This document shows, one piece after another, positions 1,134 to 26,381 of a stretch of DNA of 29,160 nt. Each line of letters starts with the position of its first letter. The first letter of the stretch is position 1. The notes beneath the pieces are model-generated. The model was given only the letters and a program-made list of their open reading frames with translations. It searched no databases and was not told where the DNA came from. The DNA comes from a virus. Both the position numbers and the translations under genes were made by a program. Location: IMG/VR virus record IMGVR_UViG_3300046000_006350, positions 1 through 29,160 of that record. One strand, written 5' to 3'.

Positions 1134-1169
1134 TTTTTTCCTTGTGGTTGGAAATTATCGTTATTCGTT

Positions 1170-1177
1170 TATTTATA
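1170..1177 (-). promoter_or_regulatory. T4-type late promoter TATAAATA
   Basis: This is an exact TATAAATA on the minus strand in the 57-base gap before the gene starting at 1133. With T4 spacing, transcription would begin near 1164 and give a leader of about 31 bases that includes the AAGGA ribosome site. An imperfect hairpin (ATAG/CTAT plus TAAC/GTTA, 1175-1201, with a 4-base bulge) abuts and overlaps its upstream edge. Confidence 0.75.
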
Positions 1178-1190
1178 GTAACAGAGACCG

Positions 1191-1736
1191 TTAAAAACTA
1201 TTAGTAGAAGGGTTGTAAAATACTTTACCCGTAACGGTGGTAGTTTTGGTAATGGTAGGTGTAGAATAATTAAATGTAAATACATCACCTCCCCCAATTT
1301 CTCCAAATTGCAATCTTATAGGGTAATATAACCCTGCAGCCATAGAAAAAGAAGCACTTACCTCAACTGGACCATGCGCGCCTCCGTTGTTAATATTGGA
1401 GTTGGCTGCTGTAAATCCAGATAAAGCATTAGCTCCAATCCACATATACGAGCCATCATCACTGGTTAAAAAGAATGTATGTGTTTCAGTAGTTGTAGGT
1501 TTAAAATAACCTAACCATTGACAACTAAAATTAGAACCATCATCAGAACTTGGTTCACTTATAGTAGTTGTTTGAACAGAGGTTGCCGGGTTAGCACCAT
1601 AGGTAGTAGGGGTTGCAGTTGCAAAAAAGGCAGGGTTCTCATTATGATATCCTGCATATGTAGTCTTGAAAAGACCTGCACTGTAGCTGGTAGTTGCAAG
1701 TCTATGATTTAACATCATATTCATATTACCAGACAT
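1191..1736 (-). CDS. PA14/GLEYA-like lectin-type virion protein
   Basis: A 181-residue protein. Residues 70-160 resemble the PA14/GLEYA sugar-binding fold: W74-L-G-Y-F opens the domain, SDDGSYMWIG at 92-101 matches the family's conserved acidic SDDGS(x)(L/M)(W/Y)(I/V) strand, and a late GLYYPIRLQFGE segment (135-146) matches the characteristic G-x-YYPIRL(x)(Y/F)GE strand. The two adjacent Asp residues (93-94) are the usual calcium or sugar ligands in this fold. There is no signal peptide or membrane segment. The start overlaps the upstream stop by one base (TAATG) and is preceded by AGGAG at good spacing. Lying between two fibre-like genes, it is probably a small receptor- or glycan-binding component of the tail. 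The fold call is by motif; the ligand is unknown. Confidence 0.7.
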   Translation of the reverse strand: MSGNMNMMLNHRLATTSYSAGLFKTTYAGYHNENPAFFATATPTTYGANPATSVQTTTISEPSSDDGSNFSCQWLGYFKPTTTETHTFFLTSDDGSYMWIGANALSGFTAANSNINNGGAHGPVEVSASFSMAAGLYYPIRLQFGEIGGGDVFTFNYSTPTITKTTTVTGKVFYNPSTNSF

Positions 1737-3130: not shown

Positions 3131-3498
3131 TATTTACCAGACAAAGAAGATAACTCAGCTTTAAGTCTTCTTATTTCTTGTAGAAGTGTTTCGTTTTGAT
3201 CACGTACAAATTTTGTACTGCTATCAATATTGGCGCTTGATAATGCTAGTTGTTGTTTAAGTATGTTATTTTCTTCTTCAACGGTTCTAAGCTGTTCTTG
3301 TATAACGGAATAAGTATTAATTTCGTTCGCACTGATACCCTGACCAGACACTCTTTCAAGATAACTCTTATATGCGTCTCTCTCCTCAATGGCCATTTGA
3401 AGTTGAGACTCAAGTACGATGACTTGAGCCTGAAACGAATTTAATTTTTGATTTGTCTTATCAATTATTACATTAAAAAACTTACTCTGATCTTCCAT
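3130..3498 (-). CDS. Small coiled-coil protein, probably virion-associated
   Basis: A 122-residue protein from ATG at 3498. It is almost entirely helical and charged, with heptad-like Leu/Ile spacing in residues 17-48 and 65-118 (for example EENNILKQQLAL and LLQEIRRLKAELSSL), so a coiled coil is likely. There are no Cys, no signal peptide and no membrane segment. A GTG two codons earlier (3504) is also in frame, but GGGG five bases before the ATG favours the ATG. This gene has its own TATAAATA promoter and a hairpin around its ribosome site (see 3503-3540). It is translationally coupled to the fibre gene that follows (TAATG overlap). It could be a fibre assembly factor or a short trimeric connector; I do not recognise the family. 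Confidence 0.7.
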   Translation of the reverse strand: MEDQSKFFNVIIDKTNQKLNSFQAQVIVLESQLQMAIEERDAYKSYLERVSGQGISANEINTYSVIQEQLRTVEEENNILKQQLALSSANIDSSTKFVRDQNETLLQEIRRLKAELSSLSGK

Positions 3499-3502
3499 AA
3501 CC

Positions 3503-3540
3503 ACCCCATAAAAATAACGTTATTGTATATTTATAGGGGT
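3503..3540 (-). promoter_or_regulatory. Hairpin masking the ribosome site, with a late promoter in its 5' arm
   Basis: On the minus strand, ACCCC-T-ATAAA (3540-3530) can pair with TTTATGGGGT (3512-3503): ten base pairs with one bulged T. The 3' arm contains the GGGG that serves as ribosome site for the ATG at 3498. The 5' arm contains most of the TATAAATA promoter (3535-3528). The loop holds the palindrome AATAACGTTATT. Read-through RNA would fold and mask the ribosome site; RNA started at the late promoter would lack the 5' arm. Confidence 0.55.
3528..3535 (-). promoter_or_regulatory. T4-type late promoter TATAAATA
   Basis: An exact TATAAATA on the minus strand, 30 bases before ATG 3498. 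The expected start is near 3522, giving a leader of about 24 bases that carries GGGGTGG. Confidence 0.75.
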
Positions 3541-3543
3541 AAT

Positions 3544-4917
3544 TTAATAAGTTCCTCCGTCGATACCACCATATACTGGGGTACCATCAGAACCTGCTTG
3601 TAGTACTTGACCGTGCGTTCCAGCTGCAGTTACACTTAATGCACCTGTAGCATTACCAAATAAAATACCGTTAGTAGTAAATGTACCGCGACCTGTACCT
3701 CCATCACCAACAGCAATGTTAGCAGTCAGTCCAGAAACTGTACCCCCAGTCAAACTAGACACCAATGTGGCAACAGTGTAGTCAGCAACAGTGACAATGT
3801 TACCTGTTGGGTTAGTAGTTAGGTCGTTAAATAATTTAAATTTACCTGAGTCAGAAGCATCTCTAAACAAGCCAGCAAACTTGGTGCCTGAATTAACGTA
3901 CTCACCAAAGAAACCAATGTCTAAGGAATCTGAAGGATTAGCATTTCCGAACTTAACCAGAGGGTCTTCAACAGTTAAGGTTGCAGTATTTAAAGTAGTT
4001 GCATTACCAAGTACAATTAAATCACCGTTAACAGTCAATGTGTTACCAATTGTAACATCATTTGGCAAACCAATTGTAATTGCTGCGTTAGAGCTACTAA
4101 CTTCGATTTCGTTAGCAGTACCTGTTAGACTTGTAACACCAGTGTTAAATATAGAAATGGTATTATCAGAAACAACTGTATTAATACCGGTGCTTCCAGT
4201 AATTCTTAAAGTATCACCACCACTTAAAGTATCTGGGGTTCCAGAATTACCAGCTAATGTAAAAGATGTGGAAACAGCTACGTTAGAAGCTGATGTAACT
4301 CTACCGAAAGTATCAACTGTAAGTACAGGTATGTTAGTTGTACCACCATATGTTGAAGCAGATACACCTGATGTTGCTAGAGCAACAGTAATGTTAGAAG
4401 ACTCACCTGCTTGACCGGATAATGTGACCCCGGTGCCAGCTGTTAAATTAGCAACATAATCACCAACAGTATCTGTACCTAGTACGACGGAATTACTAAT
4501 GACGTTGGCAACAATAGTAACATCTTGGGTACCATCGAATAATACGTTGCCTTCAAGATCCCCACTAAGGTTGATACGTCTTGCTGTAGATAGGCTTTGT
4601 GCAGATGTAGCTACAATATTACCAACAAAAGAGTTGGCGGTAATAGTATTGGCAGAAAAATTACCTAAAGAATCACGAGCAACTAAGGTGCTTACAGTAT
4701 TGGCGCTGGTTGCAGCATCTACCTTAGTTGTATAGTATCTACCACCAATGGTATGAATTACTTCCCCGCCCCCGGAGTCTTGTACTTCAATGTACAGTTT
4801 GGCGTTAGCACCATTGTTACTCTTGTCGTAGGAATAGGCTAATTCGCCTTCCAGCAGATCTGTAGTAGTTGCTGCTGTTACGTTGGGGGAGCGCTTAATT
4901 TGAATTGTGGTTGCCAT
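3544..4917 (-). CDS. Tail-fibre-like structural protein (MATTIQIKRS type)
   Basis: A 457-residue protein. The N-terminus (MATTIQIKRS, then LLEGELAYSYDKSNN...AKLYIEV and GGRYYTTKVD to about residue 67) is a head domain I know from many cyanophage and pelagiphage structural proteins. The middle carries a VVLGTDTVGDYVANL unit and a STYGG...TVDTFGRVTSASNV unit, both with counterparts in the gene at 1-1133. A later segment (VNGDLIVLGN, then VEDPLVKFGN and DIGFFGEY...FAGLFRD) is a recurrent marine fibre module. The protein ends in DGGTY, as the next gene ends in DGGIY. AAGGAACCACA before the ATG is a good ribosome site. No late promoter is seen directly upstream, so it is probably co-transcribed from 5534. 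Likely role: fibre or baseplate-attached structural subunit. Confidence 0.75.
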   Translation of the reverse strand: MATTIQIKRSPNVTAATTTDLLEGELAYSYDKSNNGANAKLYIEVQDSGGGEVIHTIGGRYYTTKVDAATSANTVSTLVARDSLGNFSANTITANSFVGNIVATSAQSLSTARRINLSGDLEGNVLFDGTQDVTIVANVISNSVVLGTDTVGDYVANLTAGTGVTLSGQAGESSNITVALATSGVSASTYGGTTNIPVLTVDTFGRVTSASNVAVSTSFTLAGNSGTPDTLSGGDTLRITGSTGINTVVSDNTISIFNTGVTSLTGTANEIEVSSSNAAITIGLPNDVTIGNTLTVNGDLIVLGNATTLNTATLTVEDPLVKFGNANPSDSLDIGFFGEYVNSGTKFAGLFRDASDSGKFKLFNDLTTNPTGNIVTVADYTVATLVSSLTGGTVSGLTANIAVGDGGTGRGTFTTNGILFGNATGALSVTAAGTHGQVLQAGSDGTPVYGGIDGGTY

Positions 4918-4940
4918 TGTGGTTCCTTGTTATTATTTTT

Positions 4941-5177
4941 TTAGTAAATTCCACCGTCCACCGCAGCAACCCCAGCCGTTATAGGCTGTGCTACCCACTT
5001 ACTTGTGGTTGTATCATAAATTAAAGTATACCCATCTTGTAAATCGGTGGTAACAACATTACTTAATGATTGTAAAGTACCACCTGTTGATTTGTTAACC
5101 GTTATACTACCGGTTGCTCCTGCTCCTTGGGCAACAGAAATACCGGTATTAGTATTTTTTCTGACTGTAATGGCCAT
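4941..5177 (-). CDS. Small virion-type protein ending in DGGIY
   Basis: A 78-residue protein starting MAITVRKNTNTG. It has a Gly/Thr-rich beta-type first half, then SLSNVVTTDLQDGYTLIYDTTTSKWVAQ..., a segment that looks like the recurring 'L-x-DGYTLVYDxxTxKWV' unit of marine fibre proteins, and ends VDGGIY. The ATG directly follows the stop of the upstream gene (TAAATG), and the next gene starts 24 bases on, so it is part of the same operon. It looks like a stand-alone copy of a fibre module and may be an accessory subunit of the neighbouring fibre. Specific function not known. Confidence 0.65.
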   Translation of the reverse strand: MAITVRKNTNTGISVAQGAGATGSITVNKSTGGTLQSLSNVVTTDLQDGYTLIYDTTTSKWVAQPITAGVAAVDGGIY

Positions 5178-5510
5178 TTATTTCGTAGCCTCAGGGTAAA
5201 TGGTTACTATTCCCTCTACAATCCTCTCCACCGTTAGAGTATTAGATACTAACTCCACATCATAAACATATCTACCTGCCTTAAGAGCGCTGGTTTGTGT
5301 AGAAGTAAGATCTAGAGAGATTGTTCCGTCTGCAGGGCTGGCAACATTTGCTGTAAATGAGGTATTAGCAGTCGTATAGTACGACCTTCTCATCTGAGAA
5401 CGTACTGTATAGTTGGTTAAATTCCTAGCCGAACCGGTATCATCAGTCACAGTTATAGTAACACTAAACGTTGTACCTTGATCGATAGCTAGATTGGAGA
5501 CGGTTGCCAT
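5178..5510 (-). CDS. Ig-like, BppU-N-terminus-like virion protein
   Basis: A 110-residue protein from ATG 5510. The layout (DQGTTFSVTITVTDDTGSARNLTNYTVRSQMRRSY, then DGTISLDLTSTQTSAL, then GRYVYDVEL..GxV..RIVEGIVTIYPE) is the beta-sandwich seen in phage baseplate upper proteins such as the BppU N-terminus and in small T4-like cyanophage structural proteins. A TTG at 5522 would extend it by four residues, but GAGGA lies between that TTG and the ATG at proper spacing, so ATG 5510 is chosen. It is the first gene after the TATAAATA at 5534-5541. A baseplate or fibre-attachment role is plausible but inferred from fold pattern only. Confidence 0.65.
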   Translation of the reverse strand: MATVSNLAIDQGTTFSVTITVTDDTGSARNLTNYTVRSQMRRSYYTTANTSFTANVASPADGTISLDLTSTQTSALKAGRYVYDVELVSNTLTVERIVEGIVTIYPEATK

Positions 5511-5533
5511 TTTATTCCTCAATATTTATCGTA

Positions 5534-5541
5534 TATTTATA
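5534..5541 (-). promoter_or_regulatory. T4-type late promoter TATAAATA, fused to a terminator
   Basis: An exact TATAAATA on the minus strand. Its first T is the last T of the upstream terminator's T-tract. The expected start is near 5528, giving an 18-base leader with GAGGA before ATG 5510. Confidence 0.75.
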
Positions 5542-5564
5542 AAAAAAGGGCCCTAAGGCCCTTT
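5541..5564 (-). terminator. Rho-independent terminator of the oxygenase cassette
   Basis: On the minus strand, AAAGGGCC-TTAG-GGCCCTTT is a perfect 8-bp stem with a 4-base loop, followed by more T (seven in a row in total, including the stem's last three). It lies 22 bases after the stop of the gene at 5586-5813 and is the clearest terminator in the window. Confidence 0.8.
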
Positions 5565-5585
5565 GCAAATGTTTAATATTATAGA

Positions 5586-5813
5586 CTATCTAATAATAGC
5601 CGTAGATGTTTCTTTATCTATTGTCATTACCCCTTGACATGTAATATTATAGTCAGACCCGTTAGAATCTTTTTCACTTTTAACAGGTACAGAAATATCT
5701 ATATTTTTAAAAAGATATTCTTTTTTACCTTCAAACACACGCCACACATGATCTAATGTTCCTCTACCGGCTTGACCTCTAGATTTATTAAATCGAATGT
5801 GATAGGTATTCAT
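5586..5813 (-). CDS. Conserved 75-residue phage protein of unknown function
   Basis: A 75-residue protein beginning MNTYHIRFNKSRGQAGRGT, followed by DHVWRVFEGKKEYLFKNIDISVPV and a C-terminal ITCQGVMTIDKETSTAII. From memory the pattern matches a small protein conserved in T4-like marine phages, with no function assigned. The N-terminal third is basic and the rest looks like a small beta protein. Its ATG overlaps the stop of the oxygenase gene by four bases (ATGA), so the two are translationally coupled, and a terminator follows. This pairing suggests a job linked to the oxygenase, but the sequence does not show what it is. Confidence 0.65.
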   Translation of the reverse strand: MNTYHIRFNKSRGQAGRGTLDHVWRVFEGKKEYLFKNIDISVPVKSEKDSNGSDYNITCQGVMTIDKETSTAIIR

Positions 5814-6538
5814 ATTACTTCGGCAGCAGGGGGTATATCACAAGCGTTACTAGCTGCAGGTGCAGGTATTACAGTTAAATTAAAATGTACAAACTTAATG
5901 GGTTTGTCTGCTGCATGACGAGAAAAAGAATGTGGTAACCAGGAATTAGCAAAAATCATTAAACCTGGTTTAGGAGTAAAATTAATCATTTTACTGGCAG
6001 GGGTTGCTGCATTAATATCTTTTTGAGGAAGATCGATCTGAACCTTAGCCGATCTAGGGTCATGGAATACTGCTAGTGAACCATCTTCTGGTGCCTCAAG
6101 AAAGTAAAAACCTACAATCTGCGAACCAAATCCGTGAACATGGGTATCCATTGACGAATGCTTATGATGTTCTTGGGTCCACATTTCTGTAAACGACATC
6201 GCCATATCCTGCATATCATAGCCTTGTTCATTAAGAATATTCCATGCAGTTATGCCAATAAATTCAGAAAATTCTGTCATACGGGGATCACTATAGAAGT
6301 TATCTGTCATATAGACAGGGTACATTTCGTTAAGGTCCTCCTTTTTTCGAAAAACTTCTAAATTTTCCTCTGATACTGTATTGACAGCTTCTAGAAAATC
6401 TGGGCGCTCAATCAGGTAAATAGAACATGGAAAATGATGAGCAACCTGCAATTGCGAGCCTGGAGCTGCCTCAGTAACCAATTCTTTAGTCTTACGAGCC
6501 GGTTTATTAGATATTTTTTTAGGCAGAGTTTTGATCAT
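5810..6538 (-). CDS. 2OG-Fe(II) oxygenase superfamily protein
   Basis: A 242-residue protein. Residues 76-222 fit the 2-oxoglutarate/Fe(II) oxygenase type common in T4-like marine phages: a FxEMW stretch, THVHGFGSQIVGFYFLEAP (132-150; H133 or H135 as iron ligand), SLAVFHDPR (154-162), PKPGLMIFANSWLPHSFSRH (189-208; H203 as distal ligand) and a final KFVHFNLTV strand. Such enzymes hydroxylate or demethylate proteins, nucleic acids or small molecules using O2 and 2OG; the substrate here is not known. The N-terminal 30 residues are basic and probably flexible. No clear Shine-Dalgarno precedes ATG 6538, although it is the only plausible start. It heads a two-gene unit inside the fibre region, so it may modify a fibre or host component. 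Metal ligand assignment is tentative. Confidence 0.8.
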   Translation of the reverse strand: MIKTLPKKISNKPARKTKELVTEAAPGSQLQVAHHFPCSIYLIERPDFLEAVNTVSEENLEVFRKKEDLNEMYPVYMTDNFYSDPRMTEFSEFIGITAWNILNEQGYDMQDMAMSFTEMWTQEHHKHSSMDTHVHGFGSQIVGFYFLEAPEDGSLAVFHDPRSAKVQIDLPQKDINAATPASKMINFTPKPGLMIFANSWLPHSFSRHAADKPIKFVHFNLTVIPAPAASNACDIPPAAEVI

Positions 6539-10181: not shown

Positions 10182-10427
10182 TTATTTATCTGTCTTAGAT
10201 TGACTGATTAAAATACGAAGCATATCTTTAAGCTCACCAAGTTCATTCTTCATATTAGACATTTCTTTTTCTAAGCTCTCAGTAGAATTAGCCGACTTTT
10301 GAGCTAATGTTCTCTGGTTAATATAGTTCTGTCTAGATACTTGATCTACCACTAATATAGCTTTAGAATTAGGATCCCTATACAGAGTAGGATGATCCTT
10401 TACTTTAAGTACTTGTTTATTAATCAT
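10182..10427 (-). CDS. Small phage protein with C-terminal coiled coil
   Basis: An 81-residue protein. The first half (VKDHPTLYRDPNSKAILVVDQVSRQNYINQR) follows a pattern I know from small proteins located after the large tail gene in T4-like cyanophages: a 'HPxLxRDxxSKAIL..D...YxxY..QR' core. The second half (ESLEKEMSNMKNELGELKDMLRILI) is a clear amphipathic coiled coil. Its start overlaps the upstream stop by four bases (ATGA) and lacks a strong ribosome site, so translation depends on coupling. It may be a virion connector or assembly helper; no function is established that I can name. Confidence 0.65.
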   Translation of the reverse strand: MINKQVLKVKDHPTLYRDPNSKAILVVDQVSRQNYINQRTLAQKSANSTESLEKEMSNMKNELGELKDMLRILISQSKTDK

Positions 10428-12259
10428 TCTAGAGCAATAATTCTAAGATCTTTAACCTTTGGATAAGCGGCAATACTGGTAGATTTAAGCACTACTTTAA
10501 TTACAAACGCATTAAATGAGGCTAAACTATCTACAAGTTTTTCTATATCAACAAACTGACTATCAACAGTATTTTTAATAGTAGGTAAAGACAATTGGGT
10601 ATATTCTTTAGTATCAAAACTGATTGCTTCACTACCATTTTGCAATTTATAATATACCTCTACGTCTGCTCCTGCTGGCTTAGATACTGCAAACCGTACT
10701 AATAAACTAGTGGCAGGTGTTGCAAGTTCAATTTTCCTAGTTACATAATTTGCACGAGTACTACTTCCTGAAGCAGCCTCATCAGAAACATACATTGGTC
10801 TGTATACAATACTGGTTACATTACCTGAAGGATTGGCATTAGAGACTGGTATACTAAAAGATGCACCCTCATTAGATACTGCCGTCAACCGGAATGTACC
10901 GTTGTTTGTGACTGCACCAGAAGTGGTAATGGTAACAAAGGCCCCTGGTACCATGGTCTTTACGTTTGCTTTTTCTAACGCACCACCTATTGTTACATTA
11001 CCCGTACCATTAAATGAAATAAGGGTATTAGCATCAGCAATAGTAACTAGGTCTGGACTTAAGTTATTTGCAGAAGAAGGAGAATTAATATCAGGAGTTA
11101 TAAACAATGCACTTGAGAAAGGAAGATCAATTGTTGGGGATACAAAACCATCGCTGGTTTTTAATTCTAATCTGTAAACAAAACTTTCTGCTCCAGCCAT
11201 TGAAATAGAAGCATTTTGACTATCTACTAATAATCTTTCGGTATTAAAGTAAATAGTATCTGGATTAAAAGATTCAAAACTACTGACCGTAAAAGATGTA
11301 TCGGTAGTTTTTAATTTATGATTAACAGTTGTTCTTGGGGGTGTAGCGGTGCTAATTGCTGGATAGATAGCAGAAAATTTACGTGGTGTTGTAGCTGTAA
11401 TGCCTCCTCCGCCAAATCTACCGCTTGTAATATTACCTGTTATATAAGAGTTAGCTGCAATTGTAACCGTATAACCATTAGCAACCACATTACTTACCGA
11501 TAGATATGTGTTTGCTAGTAACAGTGTAGGTATGTTGCTAATAGATACTGTGTTACCTGATGTATTAGCTTCATATGCAAAATGTCCAGGTATACCATCG
11601 TACTTAACAACTGAACCACTTACAAACCCGTGGTTTTTATGATACACTCTTAAAATAGATTGACCATTAAACGCTTGAAAGGGATTATTTTCAAGCAAAG
11701 CCAGGGTAGGCTGTTTAAGAGAATTTTTAGAAATGATTAAATCAACTGTAGCTGCCTGCGAAGTAACGTTGGCCCGATATATTTTAAACTTTACATCGCG
11801 AGTCTGGTCTACTGTCCAATTAACTCCATTAGTAGACATGAGCATAACCCCTGAATAGGGTTGCTTAAAGATAGTAGAGCCTGTTGAATTATCTTCACCC
11901 CCTAGTTGTCCAACATATACCTTGTGTTTTTTGCTATCAGAGGATAAAGCAAAACAGTATTGTCCAGACTCTAAATTTATAGGTACAGGAAATGTAAAGC
12001 TAGTAGCTACGGCTGCGTTTGCAGACGTGTTAATATTATCTGAATCAACTACAACTATTGAGTTAGGTAGAATAGATGAACTGGGAATACCATTTTCAAG
12101 TTTTCTTACGGAAAGTTCCACAGGTAGTTTATCATGTTTTTCACTAAAAAACAAATCAATTTTAGTAAGAAGTAAGTTTCTGTCGACAAAAAAGGATTGA
12201 GCCAGAGTGTCTGAGTACCCGCTTACTCCTGTTCCACCATCTGCATTTAGACTAGGCAT
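10424..12259 (-). CDS. Baseplate/tail structural protein, distal half of the DUF4815-type protein
   Basis: A 611-residue protein. Residues 14-165 (YSDTLAQSFFVDRNLLLTKIDLFF..., then VELSVRKLENGIPSSSILP, QPYSGVMLMSTNGVNWTVDQTRDVKFKIYRA) match a domain that, as I recall, lies in the C-terminal part of the large DUF4815 proteins of marine T4-like phages. The C-terminus (TRKIELATPATSLLVRFAV, VEVYYKL, NAFVIKVVLKSTSIAAYPKVKDLRIIAL) also fits that ending. The middle holds beta segments with YHKNHGFVSGSVVKYDGI. Here it is a separate gene, 30 bases after the 1658-residue DUF4815 gene, with AAGGAATATAA before its ATG. It probably assembles with that protein. Residues 1-13 (MPSLNADGGTGVS) look like a new N-terminus. 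Confidence 0.7.
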   Translation of the reverse strand: MPSLNADGGTGVSGYSDTLAQSFFVDRNLLLTKIDLFFSEKHDKLPVELSVRKLENGIPSSSILPNSIVVVDSDNINTSANAAVATSFTFPVPINLESGQYCFALSSDSKKHKVYVGQLGGEDNSTGSTIFKQPYSGVMLMSTNGVNWTVDQTRDVKFKIYRANVTSQAATVDLIISKNSLKQPTLALLENNPFQAFNGQSILRVYHKNHGFVSGSVVKYDGIPGHFAYEANTSGNTVSISNIPTLLLANTYLSVSNVVANGYTVTIAANSYITGNITSGRFGGGGITATTPRKFSAIYPAISTATPPRTTVNHKLKTTDTSFTVSSFESFNPDTIYFNTERLLVDSQNASISMAGAESFVYRLELKTSDGFVSPTIDLPFSSALFITPDINSPSSANNLSPDLVTIADANTLISFNGTGNVTIGGALEKANVKTMVPGAFVTITTSGAVTNNGTFRLTAVSNEGASFSIPVSNANPSGNVTSIVYRPMYVSDEAASGSSTRANYVTRKIELATPATSLLVRFAVSKPAGADVEVYYKLQNGSEAISFDTKEYTQLSLPTIKNTVDSQFVDIEKLVDSLASFNAFVIKVVLKSTSIAAYPKVKDLRIIALE

Positions 12260-12289: not shown

Positions 12290-15200
12290 TTAGTAATAAT
12301 CATAACTACTTGCAACTCCATTAGCTGCTAAAACATCCCAAGCACCGTTTCCTGATGCCCCATTTTCAATAATACTTAAGGTAATAGCTGCAGCATAATT
12401 TGAGATCGCTGTCTGTATTCCCGCGTCAGTATTAGGGAAAGAACCGTTTGCAATTCCAACTTCCCAGAACGATAGCATATCGGCAGTAGGTGTGCCAGCA
12501 TTAACAATTGATGCGACAGTTTCTTTCGTTGCTTCAAAAATAGGAACAACGGTTGTATTAAAATCAGCGCTTGTTACCGAGGCAACTCTTTCTGTAAAAC
12601 TATTTCCACTACCATCAGTAGCAGAGAGAATATTTGTTGCAGTAAGATAATTATCTACAGAAAGACCGTTTGGTAATACGTAACCAGGAACTGCTAGTGC
12701 AGAAGTAGGGTTAAGTATGGCGATTGCAGGGCCGGAATGAAAGCTAAATTGAGTTCCTCCATCATTCGCTGCCAGTTCCCTATTAAAATCATACCCTTCA
12801 GGAGTAGTAACTGCTGCCTGTTGGATAACAGTAAGAGAACTTCCTCTTTCTGCAGCATATGCTGCAACTGCATCTCTGTACTGCTCAGCCCGGTCAGAAG
12901 AGAATGTACTAAAGTCAGCAGCTGCCCCATCATTATACAGGGAAGATACTATTAACCAATCTAAAGCTCTAACGGGCGGTTTAGGGGGTTCTGGTGGTGA
13001 TTTATTATGGCTTAACAAGCCCTGACAAATATATGTATGTGCTTCATCAATAGTAATCTTAACAACTGGGCCAACTGTATGATCTTCAATACCGGTAATT
13101 ACTTTACCAGACAATACATCTCCTACCTTTGCATCTTTTGCAATTAACCAAGAGGAAGTAATTTCATTATAAAATTTATGTTCATAACTACCAATAAACT
13201 CTGTATCGTTAAATATAATTTTAATTCTAGGTACTTCTGGAATTATATTACAATAGGTAACAGGGTAAGTATTCCAAATTATTGTATCTTCATGTTGGGT
13301 ATAAACCAGATCACCTACATTTAAGTTTCCAGCTTCTTTCAAGGTACCATCTGCCATTAAAATTTTCATTTCAGGTGCGGGGCAGACCGGGGGTTGGTAA
13401 GGAGGATAAGGTGGTTGTGGACCAGGTCCCGGGTCGCCTCCTCCAGTATACACGTCCTCTACGTACACAGGAGCTGGAGTACTTGCTGGAGGTGGGGAAG
13501 ATGTATCTACAAAAACTACCGGTGGAGAATATACCACCCTCGGTGGTTCAGTATAGGAAATTGTACCGCTTGCTGTATATATAGCGTCAGCAAAAGATTC
13601 TTTATCACTACCATCAGTTGGGGAGTCGGTAAGTCTAAATTTAACTGAACCAGCAGGTATTCTAAGACTGTTTATATCTAAGTTATAGTTAAACGTACCT
13701 GTAACTGTACCTTTGTCATCCGTAATTATGTCAGCACTGGTGGAAAAGTAATCCCCTGTAAATGTAACATTGGAGGTAGTATTGGCACTTTTACAGTAAT
13801 CGGTAACATTATACTCATTAAAAAAGGCATACATTTTAGTATTAGGTTTAAGCTTTTTTGCTGTAAATCTAATCGATGCGCTACGTATGAATGGAAAGAC
13901 TGCATTGGTAGAACTACCTGTAGTGCTAGCATCTGTAATTACCACACCACCTTGTACCGCCTTTGCAGCATCTTTGTTTGACGGTGTGTACCAAAACTGC
14001 TTCCAAGATCCCCATACTGAACCATAGGTTGCCTCACCTACAGAATCTGGAATAAAAGTATCGTAGGCACCAGTATCATCTCTGTATATCAATGGTTTAT
14101 CTGATGTACTAAACCATGTATCACCTGGAGGGGAAAGAGTCATTGATCCTGTAAAAGTATAATTGTCATACGGGTTAATACTTTCGACTGAATCGGAAAA
14201 ATCATTAACAATATATGGTAGATCTTCATACTGTAACATTACAGTATTATTCTTTACTACATATCCGTTATTAGTTCTATTTGCTGTAGTAGGGGTTTGT
14301 TCAACTAATTTAAAATTATCTTGAATAAATGCAGGTTTTAATTCCCCACTGTCAAAATCCATGGAGATGTTATAATCTAAATTGCGTACATCACCAATAC
14401 CATGCCCTTTAAATGCTTCTACTACGAAACCATTTTTAAATCTATCTAATCCAAAACTATCTTTGACTGAAAATACCGCAGTATCTAATTCCAATAAAGA
14501 CAAGGTAGTATAGTACTCAAGATTTTTAATTCGGTTTTCTAGTTTACCAATATCTTTCATAGTATATCGTTTTTGGTCTATAGCATAAAAGATTGAGTCT
14601 CTATTAATATTAAACCCGTAGGCAGGATGCTCTACTACAAATAGTGGCATAGCCTCAGCAGGTATTAAAGGCTCTACAGGCTCAAGACTTGATATACCTT
14701 CTTTATACGTTATCTTACCGTCACTGGTAATAAAGATTTTATCGGTTCTAGGTAAATAATAAGAATAGTCAGTTTGAAAATCATTCGCATAATCTAAGAA
14801 TTCATTTCTTACTGCTCCGGTATTCTTAAAATTTACACCGTCGTTAGAAATTCTTGGTCTTAGATCAATAGAGTCTCTTAAAGAATAAACTATACCTTGA
14901 TCTTTAAAGGTAGGTATGGTATCATAATCTGGGTATGACTCAGCACTAAAATAATCCCCTGTACCATGCGTAAAGAAATCATAATTAATCTTTATAGGAC
15001 CTACTGGTGCAGGCTTACCGGGTTTCAATTTAACTTTAGATATACCATAATATGTAGAAGTTTGACCAGTTTCTAAGGTATAATTATCAGTAATATCAAT
15101 TGAATTACTTTCTAGATAGGACGTCCCGAAAGCATTAGCCGACATTCTTACGTTTGATAGTTCATAAGCATCAGCAACACCAAGAGAAATAACGGTTGCT

Positions 15201-17266
15201 TGACAATCAGTTCTGGTAGTATAGGTGGCTGAAGTAGAGGTAGAGGTCTTAGCTTTTGCTGCAGGATCATTCTTAATGATAGTAGTATAAATCAATACGT
15301 CTTGATTAGTCAACCCGTAATCAGAAAGATCAATAGAAATGTTTCGGTTAGTGGGTGCGTCGGTAAAAGTAATTTCATCCGATTCAATTTTATAATATTT
15401 ACCTGCATTACCGCCACTTACTACAACAGCAAAATAATCTTGATCTGTTCTTGAAGCAAATGTTGTTCCAACCGCTGTGGTTAATGCTACTATGTTTGCA
15501 GAAAGTGTACCATAAAATACTCTTCTTGTACGTAAAGTAATGTCACTAAGATCTTTAATAACACTATTTGGCATTGGGAAGATATATGATGCTTTATCAT
15601 TATCAACCAAAACCGCTTCATCTCTTGTTGTATTAATTCCAAAAACATTAGATAGTGGGTAATTTCTATCTATAGTTAAAGCAGAATTAGTAGTTACTGC
15701 AGTAACTCGATATGAATTAGAAGTATCTGAATTAAATTTAATATAATCACCTACCTCAAGTTCAGAGGTAAATACAGAATTAAGGCCTACAACAGCTGTA
15801 CTTCCATTTGTTAATGTTACAGTACCAGTAACAGAAGTATTTGTAGATGGTACAATGTTTGCAGTAAAAGCAGTCGAAACATAACCAGTATCTGAAACAC
15901 TTGCATGGTATAGCTGTTTTACATCTCTTTCAAACGTATACCCGCTATTCATACTAATATCAAATAAGAAGGTATTGAAGGTAGAGGCAGCCAACATTGC
16001 GTTGCTTGAAGGAGATTCAAATCCCCTAACCTTTGCATTACCTACCAGCGTACCTGCAGGAGAGCCAGGCGTGGCGGTGTATTGGTCGTAAAGATTTATA
16101 TCTATTAAGTTGGAAGTAAAATTAGGAATACCGAATGCATCTTTTACTTCTACATAATTACCAATAGGAGTTCTAACTACAGCATTGGTAACGTTAGCGG
16201 TATCCCGTGGCTTGCTAAAAGTAAAATATCGATTTGATTGAGTTTCGACTTCATATCCCTTTACATAACTTTTACCAGGAGTTAAAATAGCTATAGAAAG
16301 ATTAGCGTTACCTTGCGCATTGCCCACATAACCTGTAAGGTCTGCAGAGGTAGCAGCATGCTCTATAAATTTAAGATTAAAAGGCTTTACCGTATAGTCA
16401 CCTGATTCATCAAAAGTTCTTCTAGCCAACTCATCTGCTAAAATATTATAACCAGGTTTATCTACTAAATTAGTTTCTTTACCATTAACTACTCTTAATA
16501 ATTCTATAAAATTATCTGAATCATTAGCACTAAATGATCTTTTATTAAGAGACAGTTCTATTTTATATCTGTCTGCACCTGGTGCAAAATAATTAAATGT
16601 ACTAATAGCAGGATCTAAAAGTGTCTCATCATCCTCACTGTTAACAGCAGATTCTACTATTTCAAGCCCTACTCTATAATTAGAATTACTAAGATACTTG
16701 TCTAGAATAATAGTATTAGCAAATACTTTTACAAAATGATCTTTAACAAAATATACACCATCACTGATACTTGCACCAAGACATTTTCCGGTAGATGAAA
16801 CAGTAGCGCTGTAAAGTGTACCGGTATCATTTGTAACAATATCTTCAGCCGCACTAAAGGCGCTAGCAGTTCTACTGGTACCAGAATCTAAATATTTAAC
16901 AAAAATTGTAGGGGGGTCAATAGCTGTAGCAGGCTCGACCTTCATTACTATAGCTCTGATTCCAGAAGTCTGACCAATCATCTCTCTATTAAGATAATTA
17001 GTAACGTCGATATCCGTAGAATTGAATGTTGACAGTAGCTTTACAAAATTAAAGTTTTGATCAAATTTAACGTTACCTGGTATAACCATTGAACCAGGTT
17101 TAAATACATGGTTACCGAATCTAGAAACTTGATTTTGAAGTATAGTTTGAAGTTGGTTTAATTCTCTTGACTGAACAGCCACACCAGGTTTAAAAAGAAT
17201 GCGGTGAAAGCCCTTACTCTCATTGTAGTCGTCATAGTACGGATCGGTGTTAAAATTAATCGCCAT
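12290..17266 (-). CDS. DUF4815 tail/baseplate protein with embedded Hint domain
   Basis: A 1658-residue protein. The N-terminus (FHRILFKPGVAVQSRELNQLQTILQNQVSRFG at 20-51, GSMVIPG at 58-64) is the hallmark of DUF4815 proteins, large structural proteins of marine T4-like tails. The DUF-type region runs to about residue 1240, including DSIDLRPRISNDG (798-810), KRYTMKDIGKLENRI..LEYYTTLSLLE (899-926) and RFTAKKLKPNTKMYAFFN (1133-1150). A Pro-rich linker (1240-1294) leads to a Hint domain (C1295 to N1421), then KSPPEPPKPPV and a 226-residue C-terminal domain of unknown type ending SYDYY. AGGTAAGAG precedes ATG 17266. The gp8 gene ends 10 bases upstream. The usual distal half of this family appears to be encoded by the next gene. 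Position after gp8 suggests a role at the baseplate periphery or fibre attachment. Confidence 0.8.
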   Translation of the reverse strand: MAINFNTDPYYDDYNESKGFHRILFKPGVAVQSRELNQLQTILQNQVSRFGNHVFKPGSMVIPGNVKFDQNFNFVKLLSTFNSTDIDVTNYLNREMIGQTSGIRAIVMKVEPATAIDPPTIFVKYLDSGTSRTASAFSAAEDIVTNDTGTLYSATVSSTGKCLGASISDGVYFVKDHFVKVFANTIILDKYLSNSNYRVGLEIVESAVNSEDDETLLDPAISTFNYFAPGADRYKIELSLNKRSFSANDSDNFIELLRVVNGKETNLVDKPGYNILADELARRTFDESGDYTVKPFNLKFIEHAATSADLTGYVGNAQGNANLSIAILTPGKSYVKGYEVETQSNRYFTFSKPRDTANVTNAVVRTPIGNYVEVKDAFGIPNFTSNLIDINLYDQYTATPGSPAGTLVGNAKVRGFESPSSNAMLAASTFNTFLFDISMNSGYTFERDVKQLYHASVSDTGYVSTAFTANIVPSTNTSVTGTVTLTNGSTAVVGLNSVFTSELEVGDYIKFNSDTSNSYRVTAVTTNSALTIDRNYPLSNVFGINTTRDEAVLVDNDKASYIFPMPNSVIKDLSDITLRTRRVFYGTLSANIVALTTAVGTTFASRTDQDYFAVVVSGGNAGKYYKIESDEITFTDAPTNRNISIDLSDYGLTNQDVLIYTTIIKNDPAAKAKTSTSTSATYTTRTDCQATVISLGVADAYELSNVRMSANAFGTSYLESNSIDITDNYTLETGQTSTYYGISKVKLKPGKPAPVGPIKINYDFFTHGTGDYFSAESYPDYDTIPTFKDQGIVYSLRDSIDLRPRISNDGVNFKNTGAVRNEFLDYANDFQTDYSYYLPRTDKIFITSDGKITYKEGISSLEPVEPLIPAEAMPLFVVEHPAYGFNINRDSIFYAIDQKRYTMKDIGKLENRIKNLEYYTTLSLLELDTAVFSVKDSFGLDRFKNGFVVEAFKGHGIGDVRNLDYNISMDFDSGELKPAFIQDNFKLVEQTPTTANRTNNGYVVKNNTVMLQYEDLPYIVNDFSDSVESINPYDNYTFTGSMTLSPPGDTWFSTSDKPLIYRDDTGAYDTFIPDSVGEATYGSVWGSWKQFWYTPSNKDAAKAVQGGVVITDASTTGSSTNAVFPFIRSASIRFTAKKLKPNTKMYAFFNEYNVTDYCKSANTTSNVTFTGDYFSTSADIITDDKGTVTGTFNYNLDINSLRIPAGSVKFRLTDSPTDGSDKESFADAIYTASGTISYTEPPRVVYSPPVVFVDTSSPPPASTPAPVYVEDVYTGGGDPGPGPQPPYPPYQPPVCPAPEMKILMADGTLKEAGNLNVGDLVYTQHEDTIIWNTYPVTYCNIIPEVPRIKIIFNDTEFIGSYEHKFYNEITSSWLIAKDAKVGDVLSGKVITGIEDHTVGPVVKITIDEAHTYICQGLLSHNKSPPEPPKPPVRALDWLIVSSLYNDGAAADFSTFSSDRAEQYRDAVAAYAAERGSSLTVIQQAAVTTPEGYDFNRELAANDGGTQFSFHSGPAIAILNPTSALAVPGYVLPNGLSVDNYLTATNILSATDGSGNSFTERVASVTSADFNTTVVPIFEATKETVASIVNAGTPTADMLSFWEVGIANGSFPNTDAGIQTAISNYAAAITLSIIENGASGNGAWDVLAANGVASSYDYY
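12293..13000 (-). other. C-terminal domain following the Hint domain, unknown
   Basis: Residues 1423-1658 of the DUF4815 protein. After SPPEPPKPPV comes a mostly helical, Ala/Ser-rich region (RALDWLIVSSLYNDG, EQYRDAVAAYAAERG, later FEATKETVASIVNAG and WEVGIANGSFPNTDAGIQTAI). I recognise no family. If the Hint domain cleaves at N1421, this would become a separate polypeptide of about 237 residues. Confidence 0.5.
13004..13384 (-). other. Mini Hint (intein/BIL-like) domain within the DUF4815 protein
   Basis: A 127-residue domain, residues 1295-1421. The N-terminal block is CPAPEMKILMADGTLKEAGN followed by LNVGDLVYT, with C1295 as nucleophile. The B-type block is FIGSYEHKFY with H1363. A WLIAKDAKVGDVLSG block follows at 1373-1387. 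The C-terminal blocks are VVKITIDEAHTYICQGLLSHN (1401-1421) with H1410, H1420 and N1421. There is no homing endonuclease insert. The residue after N1421 is Lys, not Cys, Ser or Thr, so normal splicing lacks its second nucleophile; cleavage, as in BIL domains, is more likely. Both flanks are proline-rich. Confidence 0.85.
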
Positions 17267-17276
17267 CTCTTACCTG

Positions 17277-19409
17277 TTATAATTTGATTACTGTTCTTAG
17301 TGTAACTAATTGTTGCTCGCTGTAGCTAACTGATGTTCTATTATCAATATACAGCAAGTCACCGCTAAATTTATTTATCGTGGGAGAAGTTGTCAGATCT
17401 GTTATAGCATAGTCTAGATCTGACGTCTCGTCAGTTAATACATCACCTGTAGTTAGATCATGATTATTTTTGTTTTGAATTAATATTTGATTACTTGCAG
17501 GTACTACTTCTACTACTTCAAAGTATCGCTTGGATGTACCAACTAGATGAGTTAATAAAGTATCTCGGGCAAGACCACTAACGGTATCAACTGTTACGAG
17601 AAAGCATGCACTACCAATAACATTGGCAAATGCTCTCTCATTACCATATTGCTTTAAATCTTTAACAATACCAAATTGTCTGTAATCATTCTTTACATCA
17701 ACACCTTGGTTCTTTTCATTATTTATTGTTGAGGTAAACATTAAAGTATCTGCAAATAACTCTCTAACTGGATCACTGCCATGACCTCTATATGGGGATA
17801 ATATGGCAGATACATTTGCATTAGCTCCATTACCCGTTATTGTTACATTGGCATTGGTGTAACCAGAACCCGGGGTCAATACAGAAATATAACTAATAGT
17901 ATTATTAACTATTACAGCATTGCCTGTAAAATTAATACCATCTCCTGCTACTGTAACGTTGGCATAAGAGTACCCGTTACCTACGTTACTAACTTTAAAT
18001 GCATGAATACCCCCATCAACAGCAGACAGCTCAACTACTGTCTGTAAGGTATCTATATCATCTACTGAAAGATTTGCAAATATGTTAGCACCGGTACCAG
18101 TTGCGCTGGCAACAGTTAAATTAATATAGGAATAACCAGTGCCGCGATTTTCAATAATAACATCTTCAACTTGACCGGCTGAATTAATAAAGGGTGTAGC
18201 TACGAAGCCACTACCATCACCAATGGCTGAAATAATAGTACTAACGTTTGAACTGTATCTGGTACCTTCATCTTCAATTAAGACAGAGTGAATAACGCCA
18301 TTTCTAAGTACTGGAGTTAGAACGGCAGAGGTAGCAAAAAACAAATTAGCAGTTGCATTAGATGTGGGTTGACTATTACCAGACGTACTAATTGTTATGG
18401 TTGTATTTGCTCTTGCAGCAGTAGTATACCCAGTACCTTTATTAGTTAGTACAACATCGACTAAGGCATTACTACTGAATATTAAATTTGCAAAAGCATT
18501 TGAGGTGGGTTGGACCAGGCCAGCTGTTGTTATGGTAGCAGTAGTGTTAGCAATAACAGCTGTATTATAACCAGCACCTGTGCTAAATATTCTTACATTA
18601 CTAATATTATTAAGTAAGCTTGTACCCTTACCGCCACCATCGTTAATTGTAATAGATGCAGTTTTATAATTAGCTCCTGCATCTTTAATTCTTACATCAA
18701 TAAACTCACCAGAGGTATTAAATACCGGTGTTAAATTAGCTATTGAATTGCCAGATAACCCTAAAAACTGACCTGTCACAGTTAATGTAACATCGTCATT
18801 ACTGGTATAACCAGATCCAGCATTATTAATAATAACACTGCTCACTTCACCTTCTGAATAATAAGCATTAGTAACTGCTCTCTGAACTGGTATAAAGTCT
18901 GGAGTCAAAAAACGATTCTGTGAAGAAAGAGGAATGGTGTAAAGATATTTCCAAACATAACCATCAGCTGTTGCAAACGTGGTTATGTCTTGACCGGAAG
19001 GCTCCACTGTAGACGCAGCATTATTATTATTAAAAATACATTTGTATACTCCAAACGCACCTGTCAATACATAAAAATTAGCTGTCTTTAAACTAGTAGC
19101 TCCGGAATATGCAGGGGAAGTAGCGCTATAGTCACCATCGAACTGATCGTATACTGTACCGGTCGTCCAGTTTATTCTTGGCACTACATAAGATACGTCT
19201 CTTAAATTAATCTTCTTAACACTTAAAATACCGTTGCGAGTATTATACTCATAGTTCTGGGTAACTTCCGGAGTTTCTGGAACCTGGGGACTAGCCCACT
19301 CAATTATATTACCAATAAAATAGTAATAGTTGGCTCTTCGCGATAAGAATTCATTATAAACACTATCCACCAACGAACGATGGATAGTATCTTTTAAGAG
19401 AAAAGACAT
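17277..19409 (-). CDS. gp8: Baseplate wedge protein, gp8-like, enlarged by beta repeats
   Basis: A 710-residue protein; T4 gp8 is 334 residues. Residues 1-180 contain gp8-type segments of marine phages: RANYYYFIGN, VPRINWTTGTVYDQFD, NFYVLTGAFGVYKCIFNNNNAASTVEPSG, TADGYVWKYLYTIP and RFLTPDFIPV. Residues 540-710 hold the second gp8-type part (YRGHGSDPVRELFADTLMFTSTI, NDYRQFGIVKDL). Between them (about 187-537) lie eight units with a G-x-G-Y(T/S/N) core, absent from T4 gp8. In T4, a gp8 dimer joins wedge arms between gp7 and gp10. The gene lies next to the small virion gene at 19411-19851 (one-base gap) and has only a weak ribosome site, suggesting coupling. The gp8 assignment rests on these motifs and gene order. 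Confidence 0.75.
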   Translation of the reverse strand: MSFLLKDTIHRSLVDSVYNEFLSRRANYYYFIGNIIEWASPQVPETPEVTQNYEYNTRNGILSVKKINLRDVSYVVPRINWTTGTVYDQFDGDYSATSPAYSGATSLKTANFYVLTGAFGVYKCIFNNNNAASTVEPSGQDITTFATADGYVWKYLYTIPLSSQNRFLTPDFIPVQRAVTNAYYSEGEVSSVIINNAGSGYTSNDDVTLTVTGQFLGLSGNSIANLTPVFNTSGEFIDVRIKDAGANYKTASITINDGGGKGTSLLNNISNVRIFSTGAGYNTAVIANTTATITTAGLVQPTSNAFANLIFSSNALVDVVLTNKGTGYTTAARANTTITISTSGNSQPTSNATANLFFATSAVLTPVLRNGVIHSVLIEDEGTRYSSNVSTIISAIGDGSGFVATPFINSAGQVEDVIIENRGTGYSYINLTVASATGTGANIFANLSVDDIDTLQTVVELSAVDGGIHAFKVSNVGNGYSYANVTVAGDGINFTGNAVIVNNTISYISVLTPGSGYTNANVTITGNGANANVSAILSPYRGHGSDPVRELFADTLMFTSTINNEKNQGVDVKNDYRQFGIVKDLKQYGNERAFANVIGSACFLVTVDTVSGLARDTLLTHLVGTSKRYFEVVEVVPASNQILIQNKNNHDLTTGDVLTDETSDLDYAITDLTTSPTINKFSGDLLYIDNRTSVSYSEQQLVTLRTVIKL
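17799..18851 (-). repeat. Eight GxGY beta repeats in gp8
   Basis: Units start at NAGSGYT (197), DAGANYK (243), STGAGYN (276), NKGTGYT (323), DEGTRYS (380), NRGTGYS (421), NVGNGYS (475) and TPGSGYT (512), each followed by an alternating Val/Thr/Ile strand. Two units are closely alike (NTTATITTAGLVQPTSNA and NTTITISTSGNSQPTSNA), which suggests recent tandem duplication. Confidence 0.7.
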
Positions 19410-23847: not shown

Positions 23848-24093
23848 TTAGCCAGCGAACACGTCTGAGCTTCCTTCTCTAATACTATCGTTTCTTGTGT
23901 CTCTATCGCCTATTCTACAAACCCCTCTACCATTAGCAAAGACCTTGGAGCTCCCACCTACCATTGTATCTAGACGTGTGTCCCTATCTCCAATTCGAAC
24001 AACACCAAGCCCGTTTGCAAAAACGGTAGAACTACCATTATTCTTAGTGTCATTTCTGGTGTCTTTATCACCAATTCTTGCAACTCCGGCCAT
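23848..24093 (-). CDS. PAAR-repeat spike tip protein (gp5.4-like)
   Basis: An 81-residue protein made of three near-repeats of about 28 residues: G-V-x-R-IGD-x-DTR-x-D, then GSSxVFANG, at 3-28, 30-55 and 57-80. GSxxVFANG and (V/A)xRIGD are typical of PAAR proteins, which cap the spike of T4 (gp5.4) and of type VI secretion systems. The gene follows the spike gene with a one-base overlap and precedes gp25, as gp5.4 lies just after the gp5 region in T4. It has no His and only one Cys (59), so the usual zinc site of PAAR tips is not evident. It probably folds as a small sharp cone on the beta-helix. Confidence 0.8.
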   Translation of the reverse strand: MAGVARIGDKDTRNDTKNNGSSTVFANGLGVVRIGDRDTRLDTMVGGSSKVFANGRGVCRIGDRDTRNDSIREGSSDVFAG

Positions 24094-26381
24094 TATGCTA
24101 ACTGTGTTAGACCCTGAGAATGAGTCTTATGATTAAAGAATGTTAATACCTGACTTCTATTCTTAACAGAATAGGATACATGGATCCAAGGATTCTTAGA
24201 ATAACTACAATATTCTAAAATCATCTGGTCGTACTTAAGTACCTTAGCTAACTTTGATGCAATATCGTAATAGTCTTTTTTAGTAATACCTTTGAACTGA
24301 ATATCAACACCTTGACCTAATGGGTGCTGAGATGTCTTGGCATTAGATGCATTTCCTGGATCCCTAAATGCAGAAGTAACAAACATATTAGGATATATCT
24401 TCTTTATCGGTTCCAGTACATTAAGAGCTACTGCTTGAAGATTAAAAACAATTTCCCCGTATGTTGCACCAGCATGGCCTCGTATTGGATCGCGTGTAAC
24501 ACCTGCTTTACTTGATAACATCTCGACAGTAAAGTTAGGCGATAGATTATAGTTACCAGGTAACTGTGTTACAGTTTTTAATTTAACATCAGGTTCAACA
24601 AAGTTCTGTTGTTCAGACTCAACCGTCTTACTATCTACAGCAGTAGGTGGTGTACTTAGCTCTGCAGCATTAGCAAAACCTTCGCTGATAATTAGATTCT
24701 TTTGTTCGTTAAAATCTTCGGTAGTTTGAGTTTCTTCTTCTAGTGCAATAGAGCGATTATCAGCTAAGGAAAGAACCAAAGGATCATTTTTATCATTATC
24801 GGTTATATCTTTGCGGCCTGCAATTACACCAATCTTTGAAGACCCAGCAATAACGCTTTCTTGAGATTCAGATGCAGCGCCGGCATTACCTGATTGTAAG
24901 TGGGTTTGACTACCATCGAGATTAACGTTATTACTAGCTAGTAAATTAATTGCTGCGCCAGAATCAATATTAGTATTATCTCCAGCTTTAATATTAATAG
25001 CTCCGGCTGCTTGTGTATAAACAGTATCCGAAACAAAGTCATAAAGATTTGTTGCTTGAACTTTAATATCAGCATTACTACGCATATGCATATTTTCTTT
25101 TGAATGCATATTAAAGGTAGTTGCTTTTTGATTCATAGTATAATAGGCTTCAATATTAACATTACCGCTTGCGATATTAAACTCTTCTACAGCTGAAAGA
25201 TTAAATGTTCCCCCAGCCTGTGCAGTAATATCATTGTGACAGGTAATATTAGTATCACCTTCTACTTCGATGTTCGCGTCATTGCCAACAAAGATATTAC
25301 AAGCACCGTTAACAGAAATGTCTGCGCGACCTGCGATAGATATTTTTCCGTTACGATCAATAATTTCATATGAAGAGCCTTTTGTTCTTTTAACCATTGA
25401 GCCATTGGCATCAATTTCAATGTACGTACCTGATCTGTGATAAATGTGAAGTCGCTCTGAACCTGGGGTATCATCTACTTCTATAATATGACCAGATTCA
25501 GTTTGTGTTACTTTATTGTAAGGGTAAGCGCCACGAAAAGCTGATTCGGGTTCATCCCAAGCCTCCCCACCAGGTAACTTAGCACCCCTCATTCTATTAC
25601 TATTTTTTTCTTGAACTATGGTACCTCTACTGTCACCCTGTGCAAGTTTATTTGTTTCAGAAATGCCTGCATACTCTTTTGTAGGGTAGTTAGCATTAGG
25701 GTCTGTAAACCCTTTATCTAATACTTCTAACTTTTCTTTATTTTCAGTTGAATTAATATCGAATCGTTTGGCTTCTTCTAAGGCCGATGTGGCTGCACTA
25801 GAAACAAAAAGCTCATCTGTCTTTAATAAAGCTTCTTCTGGGGGTAAAGTACTGTAGAGTGTCTCAATATTATTAGTAGTTGTTTTAGGCTTTTGACCTC
25901 TACCAAATATAGAATCTGCAAACCCGCTGACTGCAGTAGTAATGGTCTTACCGACTGCAGGCGTTATTCCCTGTACAAGACTAGCTGCTAAAGCATCAAA
26001 ATTAATAATACCTAACTTGTCAGTTGGTAATGACAGTCTTAACTGGGACTGTAATTTAGTTACAATTTTGTCTGTAGTTTGTGCAAGCAATTGCTGTTGA
26101 ATAATACCATCTATATTATTACTGATAGTGATAGGGCTGTTATTACTATTAGTAATGTCAACAGGATTAATAGGCCCAATAATATTCTTAGGTATATCAG
26201 TTAACTGTTTATTAGATGCCTGTGTGACTTGCTTAACAATATCGACAGCCCCAACTTCTGCAACCCTTGAGATTACCGCTCTCAAAATTGGATTAGGAAT
26301 ATTAAGGTTGAGTGCAATTATCTTATTAAAGATATTGTTCTCAAGTACCCCTTGAATTTGTTTTGTAATTAACGGATCCAT
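24093..26381 (-). CDS. Central spike protein: beta-helix plus C-terminal M15-type peptidase
   Basis: A 762-residue protein. Residues 1-200 are a helical region of unknown type. Residues 290-500 are a gp5C-like triple beta-helix spike: VTQTESGHIIEVDDTPGSERLHIYHRSGTYIEID, then short repeating strands (GRADISVNGACNIFVGNDANIEVEGDTNI). Residues 605-745 fit the peptidase M15 type: LSPNFTVEML, GEIVFNLQALxLNVLEPI, VTSAFRDPG, SQHPLGQGVDI (H686 and D693 as zinc ligands) and NPWIHVSY (H734). M15 enzymes cut the peptide part of peptidoglycan. T4 gp5 has a lysozyme instead, in the part N-terminal to the helix. Start and stop overlap the neighbours by one base each, so it is coupled to the OB/lysozyme-like gene and to the PAAR gene. 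Confidence 0.8.
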   Translation of the reverse strand: MDPLITKQIQGVLENNIFNKIIALNLNIPNPILRAVISRVAEVGAVDIVKQVTQASNKQLTDIPKNIIGPINPVDITNSNNSPITISNNIDGIIQQQLLAQTTDKIVTKLQSQLRLSLPTDKLGIINFDALAASLVQGITPAVGKTITTAVSGFADSIFGRGQKPKTTTNNIETLYSTLPPEEALLKTDELFVSSAATSALEEAKRFDINSTENKEKLEVLDKGFTDPNANYPTKEYAGISETNKLAQGDSRGTIVQEKNSNRMRGAKLPGGEAWDEPESAFRGAYPYNKVTQTESGHIIEVDDTPGSERLHIYHRSGTYIEIDANGSMVKRTKGSSYEIIDRNGKISIAGRADISVNGACNIFVGNDANIEVEGDTNITCHNDITAQAGGTFNLSAVEEFNIASGNVNIEAYYTMNQKATTFNMHSKENMHMRSNADIKVQATNLYDFVSDTVYTQAAGAINIKAGDNTNIDSGAAINLLASNNVNLDGSQTHLQSGNAGAASESQESVIAGSSKIGVIAGRKDITDNDKNDPLVLSLADNRSIALEEETQTTEDFNEQKNLIISEGFANAAELSTPPTAVDSKTVESEQQNFVEPDVKLKTVTQLPGNYNLSPNFTVEMLSSKAGVTRDPIRGHAGATYGEIVFNLQAVALNVLEPIKKIYPNMFVTSAFRDPGNASNAKTSQHPLGQGVDIQFKGITKKDYYDIASKLAKVLKYDQMILEYCSYSKNPWIHVSYSVKNRSQVLTFFNHKTHSQGLTQLA

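Follow-up and report, generated by a model that had tools for sequence, protein, structure and literature searches.

The window analysed here, a stretch of 29,160 nucleotides of viral DNA, encodes a baseplate protein that carries a complete mini-Hint domain, and this domain belongs to a previously undescribed family of Hint domains in virion proteins. Judged from its sequences, the family would, with a somewhat better than even chance, represent a mobile autoprocessing module similar to the A-type bacterial intein-like (BIL) domains, which enters large virion proteins at their disordered linkers. Phage Hint domains are mainly known as inteins in enzymes. The present family is widespread in virion proteins and characterized by a junction signature of its own, empty-site alleles, recent lateral transfer and tandem arrays. 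Whether Hint chemistry serves phages to cleave, ligate or cross-link tail components thereby becomes open to direct test, and the family bears on the role of a Lys beside the scissile Asn and on the spread of an endonuclease-less Hint module. No description of Hint or BIL domains in virion proteins was found in the literature searched, mostly papers outside subscription.

The features of the host gene and its neighbours are reported in table 1. The host ORF passes the curated Pfam cutoff for DUF4815 (PF16075, 165 bits against a cutoff of 30, 2.1e-48) and is homologous by blastp to VrlC of Pelagibacter and Synechococcus phages (pelagiphages and cyanophages). By these sequence matches it is the N-terminal half of VrlC, a T4-type baseplate protein, from an uncultured T4-like phage, in agreement with the first-pass annotation, which had placed the domain in a virion protein. 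VrlC is regarded as integral to the two-layered T4-type baseplate, in place of T4 gp7 (PMC7029224). The separate VrlC-C gene of the window matches by blastp the C half of VrlC of Mosig, HTVC008M, BUCT-ZZ01 and Melnitz, and the gp8–VrlC synteny is as in Pelagibacter phages. The C-terminal domain of the host ORF has no Pfam match, and its AF2 model is poor (pLDDT 49.5).

Table 1. Features of the VrlC region of the window.
Feature	Position	Strand	Extent	Comment
VrlC-C gene	10424..12259	-	611 aa	own gene in the window; fused to VrlC-N in most relatives
Host ORF	12290..17266	-	1658 aa	VrlC/DUF4815 N-terminal half, linker, Hint and C-terminal domain
C-terminal domain (CD)	12293..12973	-	residues 1432-1658	found with and without Hint in the window clade
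Lys1422 (+1)	13001..13003	-		family signature residue
Hint domain	13004..13384	-	C1295-N1421, 127 aa	without endonuclease; alignment, AF2, PDB matches, family HMM
His1420-Asn1421	13004..13009	-		predicted C-terminal junction (Asn cyclisation)
His1410	13037..13039	-		block F, AHTY motif
His1363	13178..13180	-		block B, SxxH (S1360-H1363)
Cys1295 (Cys1)	13382..13384	-		predicted N-terminal junction nucleophile
Pro-rich linker before Hint	13385..13546	-		insertion region; continuous in Hint-less L108, L110, L111
VrlC-N body	13547..17266	-	residues 1-1240
gp8-like baseplate wedge gene	17277..19409	-		upstream of host ORF; weak Phage-Gp8 match

Alongside its relatives, the segment C1295–N1421 is unambiguously a complete mini-Hint domain. 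The first-pass annotation had described such a domain, of 127 residues and without endonuclease, and this is borne out by the family profile and the AlphaFold model, both of which match BILs and inteins; all the Hint motifs that it named are present, as are the Pro-rich stretches on both sides. The domain is exactly 127 codons long and is followed by K1422–S1423, with 237 residues left to the C-terminus, so that the reported Lys and Ser after the final Asn, without a usable +1 nucleophile, are also found. The Hint match that it expected from a profile search was obtained for the family and not for the window sequence alone: PT-HINT is matched by 31 of 32 family members (best 4.9e-10) and Intein_splicing by 29, whereas a single-sequence hmmscan of the window against Pfam (E<=1) gave no Hint family, and no family was matched in NCBIfam. 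An azurin match of the window Hint in the single-sequence profile scan was spurious. After these scans had missed the domain, its identity was established through the family alignment. The family HMM scores the window Hint at 170 bits (6.5e-54), and the family profile finds BIL and intein chains of the PDB (up to 7e-11; gp41-1 at 1.6e-7). There are 21 alignment columns invariant across 32 distinct family sequences, which excludes a chance origin of the motifs.

The AlphaFold model of the window Hint has a pLDDT of 92.2 and a pTM of 0.86. Its best structural match is BIL2 of Tetrahymena BUBL1 (PDB 6y75, 6tmm; Z 20.2 for 6y75, 21% identity), which differs in standing in a eukaryotic ubiquitin-like polyprotein; other matches are mini-inteins, CthBIL4 (2lwy, Z 19.0) and Hedgehog (Z 17.9). 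The family also resembles PT-HINT (PF07591), in which some members score above the curated cutoff (for example L018, 36.6 bits against 27.7) and the Hint likewise precedes a variable C-terminal part. However, no toxin domain was recognised after the Hint, and the window copy is below threshold.

Scans of IMG/VR yielded 45 loci first and then 100 (designated L and a number below). No Hint relatives were found in a first scan of genome contigs; a second one revealed them in six Sphingomonadales chromosomes, with a pattern that included SHNK and was therefore biased for Lys. Isolates with such a relative include Sphingomonas glacialis CGMCC 1.8957 and S. asaccharolytica NBRC 15499. Among 50,697 GenBank phage records there is one good match, the uncultured MT835519. 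Unrelated host ORFs of about 20 types, for the most part structural proteins of phages, carry the domain; genes for head, tail fibre, baseplate and ejection are among their neighbours where these were checked. One Sphingomonas host carries the domains Phage-tail_3 and Rcc01698_C, which indicates a tail-hub protein of GTA or prophage type. The Hints sit in Pro/Gly-rich linkers and variable parts of their hosts, anywhere from two residues past the start (L004, with only M-G before Cys1) to six before the end (L101), and 6–10 residues remain after the Asn in L088 and L098–L103. In L098–L103, from Sphingomonadales, the Hint lies at the extreme C-terminus, at least once on a tail-hub protein with Phage-tail_3 and Rcc01698_C, the +1 residue is mostly not Lys, and Lys stands at +2. 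The dN/dS of the Hint is 0.10–0.16, indicating purifying selection.

Conservation was evaluated in 51 family domains, non-redundant at 80% and as little as about 30% identical. The block B His is present in all 51, and the block F His, Cys1 and His-Asn in 50 each (the profile alignment shows 48 for Cys1, which is displaced by an insertion in L101 and L102). Cys, Ser and Thr are absent from +1 in all 50 domains with His-Asn. Lys occupies +1 in 39 of them and +2 in 10 more (49/50; the last has Arg-Arg), against 3.6% in the nearby flanks; the nominal binomial tail of 2e-55 ignores relatedness and means only that this is not chance. The viral-contig scan patterns behind this count did not contain the junction Lys. 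Where +1 is not Lys it is V, I, L, M, F, A, Y or R, and 10 of these 11 members have Lys at +2. Over half of the members with Lys at +1 have Ser or Thr at +2. By these alignments, Lys after Asn is a signature of the family and not a loss private to the window. The first-pass annotation had treated Lys as a missing nucleophile; there is indeed no nucleophile at +1, but the Lys is itself conserved at +1/+2, which suggests that it takes part in the reaction, perhaps as an acceptor or by aiding cyclisation.

The Hint is optional in its host gene. There are Hint-less alleles of the same gene with the same C-terminal domain (body identity 96% in L108, L109 and L113, 92% in L110 and 89% in L111), which encode one continuous chain of body, linker and C-terminal domain. 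At the DNA level, the window is 88% and 81% identical to the Hint-less L108 on the two sides of the Hint, and L008 is 91% and 86% identical to the Hint-less L111. Between the window and L008, identity reaches 96% in the Hint but only 79% and 64% in the flanks; the corresponding synonymous divergence is 0.138 for the Hint and 1.04 and 1.03 for the flanks. From this low Hint and high flank divergence, the Hint was exchanged recently between two backgrounds, with ends in the linkers, and is apparently mobile. Two of the Hint-less alleles, L108 (VTVCGLPV) and L111 (IPFCPGPK), have a Cys at the insertion point, which might possibly be a scar of Hint loss.

In the Hint tree, the VrlC Hints do not form one clade: there are 6 changes, at least 3 of them forced by well-supported branches, and a single clade has an AU p of 8e-6. 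The window Hint groups with Hints of unrelated proteins (support 98/91). Hints therefore entered VrlC on more than one occasion, and invariably in the region between its halves; one baseplate protein has captured the domain repeatedly.

Cleavage at the X–Cys and/or the Asn–Lys junction is probably the outcome in the window Hint, since the residues for thioester formation at Val–Cys and for Asn cyclisation at Asn–Lys are present and the +1 nucleophile is absent. The Val1294–Cys1295 bond would be converted to a thioester, a step that needs Cys1 and the block B His. Asn1421 would cyclise with the help of His1420, and the resulting cut at Asn–Lys would release the C-terminal domain, which would then begin with Lys1422. 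Most of the thioester would next be hydrolysed, releasing the VrlC-N body, and in a minority of cases the free alpha-amine of Lys1422 may rejoin the pieces. The analysis itself establishes the sequence, family, predicted fold, conservation, optional presence and mobility of the domain; we infer every one of these chemical steps, as well as the predominance of cleavage over ligation. Inteins need a +1 nucleophile, and BILs without it mostly cleave (PMC4031507, PMC7664689, PMC7765530); type A BILs give mainly cleavage products (PMC4031507, PMC7664689). The BIL-like cutting proposed in the first-pass annotation is thus retained as the likeliest event by residues, but its three-piece cut as a step of tail assembly is not established, Hint-less relatives being present. 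As those alleles are continuous, separation of body and C-terminal domain is not needed and an uncut chain dispenses with cleavage, which speaks against the autoprocessing reading; ligation, or mere tolerance of an uncut chain that evidently works, is possible.

It is unlikely that the domain mainly splices, the freed alpha-amine of Lys1422 attacking the Cys1 thioester and rejoining body and C-terminal domain around a silent, intein-like passenger. The product would equal the Hint-less chain (alleles 89–96% identical in body), the presence/absence polymorphism and the lateral transfer look intein-like, and this route of ligation is open to type A BILs (PMC4031507). However, such ligation is a minor outcome of low yield, an unspliced or cut chain should in any case be acceptable with Pro-rich linkers, and ligation would bring no gain in hosts with a 2-residue N-flank (L004) or a 6–10-residue C-flank (L088, L098–L103), where cleavage is more sensible than splicing.

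The autoprocessing reading was also compared with the organization of VrlC genes. The VrlC of cultured pelagiphages and cyanophages is a single, Hint-less chain. VrlC that bears a Hint is found as a single N–Hint–C chain (L033, L036, L037, L039, L041 and L071), as an N–Hint gene with a separate C gene (the window, L023, L027, L034, L070, L084, L088, L090 and others) or as an N gene with a Hint–C gene (L083, L085 and L086). The gene breaks directly adjoin the Hint, on its N- or its C-terminal side, and a fused VrlC–Hint–VrlC exists, which suggests that the halves work as separate chains; the coincidence of breaks and Hint fits a cleavage element. The association of Hint and fission on the VrlC-C tree involves only about four changes of each state. 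That split genes keep the Hint, their two halves being separate anyway, counts against the autoprocessing reading. No Hint was seen in an independent, unbiased survey that covered 80 VrlC-C loci, most of them fused, so the domain is a minority feature of VrlC. In the window clade, VrlC is split in two genes (10424-12259 and 12290-17266), and in nearly all other surveyed relatives it is one chain. Splicing that would rejoin VrlC-N to VrlC-C in the window phage was rejected: VrlC-C is encoded by the next gene and does not correspond to the 237-residue C-flank.

Several proteins carry more than one Hint. There are four in a protein of 1160–1170 residues in L057 (ORF from 2908), L063, L064, L072 and L073; in L057, L064 and relatives this protein adjoins tail-fibre and baseplate-wedge genes. 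Hint 1 of the array has Cys1 and ends in LLSRTVK, Hint 2 lacks Cys1 and ends in LLSHNR, and about 15 residues join them. Within this pair, neither catalytic end survives at the inner junction, while the outer junctions keep theirs. Such complementary decay is as expected if the sequences were selected for junction cleavage; seen in one lineage, it could be a coincidence. Two complete tandem Hints per protein, about 45–55 residues apart, are present in L065 (ORF 1-6024), L091 and L093.

Arrays of two to four Hints in Pro-rich linkers, together with the fibre- and baseplate-like hosts and the dispensability of the domain (Hint-less alleles), would also suit an inert folded spacer or adhesion module, the tandem arrays being repeat decorations. 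We consider this quite improbable: exactly the catalytic residues, down to His-Asn, are near-invariant in the 51 diverse members, and a spacer needs none of them.

The Lys counts at +1 and +2, set against their flank background, and the +2 Lys of members without one at +1 raise another explanation, in which the epsilon-amine of the +1/+2 Lys, or of a Lys in a neighbouring virion protein, receives the Cys1 thioester to give an isopeptide-joined or cross-linked product. Usually 8–9 A separate the +1 nucleophile from the N-scissile bond (PMC7664689). A Lys side chain might span this distance. If so, the baseplate and tail would be spliced or cross-linked by a chemistry that Hint domains are not known to perform, and a mobile module would have carried it from one phage structural gene to another. 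We regard it as very unlikely; no precedent was found in the literature searched, the epsilon-amine is mostly protonated, and the Lys might rather promote cyclisation of the Asn or just hold the strand in place.

A canonical class 1 mini-intein (as in gp41-1, DnaB and RecA) can be practically discounted: size, fold, blocks A, B, F and G (with Cys1, block B His and His-Asn) match and empty-site alleles exist, the host being continuous without the insert in L108, L110 and L111, but the Cys, Ser or Thr at +1 is replaced by Lys1422 in the window and found in none of the 50 domains, which already contradicts it, and the Hints lie in variable linkers with flanks differing from host to host, not in conserved enzyme motifs. 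Class 3 inteins, which lack Cys1 and have a WCT motif, differ by the Cys1 present here.

The autoprocessing reading relies on the likeness to A-type BIL domains, reportedly described by Amitai in 2003 and Dassa in 2004. Like these, the window domain is a mini-Hint of corresponding size (a Hint fold of about 130–155 residues without endonuclease; here 127), with Cys1, a C-terminal His-Asn, no obligatory Cys, Ser or Thr at +1 and insertion in variable host regions. Unlike these, the family has phage virion hosts, a conserved Lys at +1/+2, a CPxP start, a T-x-HE motif, insertion/absence alleles and tandem arrays; in one BIL covered by a review, the +1 position is taken by Tyr (PMC4031507). By its residues the window Hint can be called BIL-like, with the A-type features wherever they are testable, and set apart by Lys signature, virion hosts and mobility.

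Other tail genes of the window include a gp5-like gene with an OB and a lysozyme/VgrG3-like part (26381-27466) and a separate ORF with a partial Gp5_OB match, both within 24093-27466, where gp5 looks as if encoded in two genes; the T4 gp5 product is cut after translation. A 2OG-Fe(II) oxygenase-like gene (5810-6538; PF13759, 1.9e-9) lies among the tail genes, and a GLEYA/PA14-like domain protein (1191-1736) is a putative carbohydrate-binding tail component.
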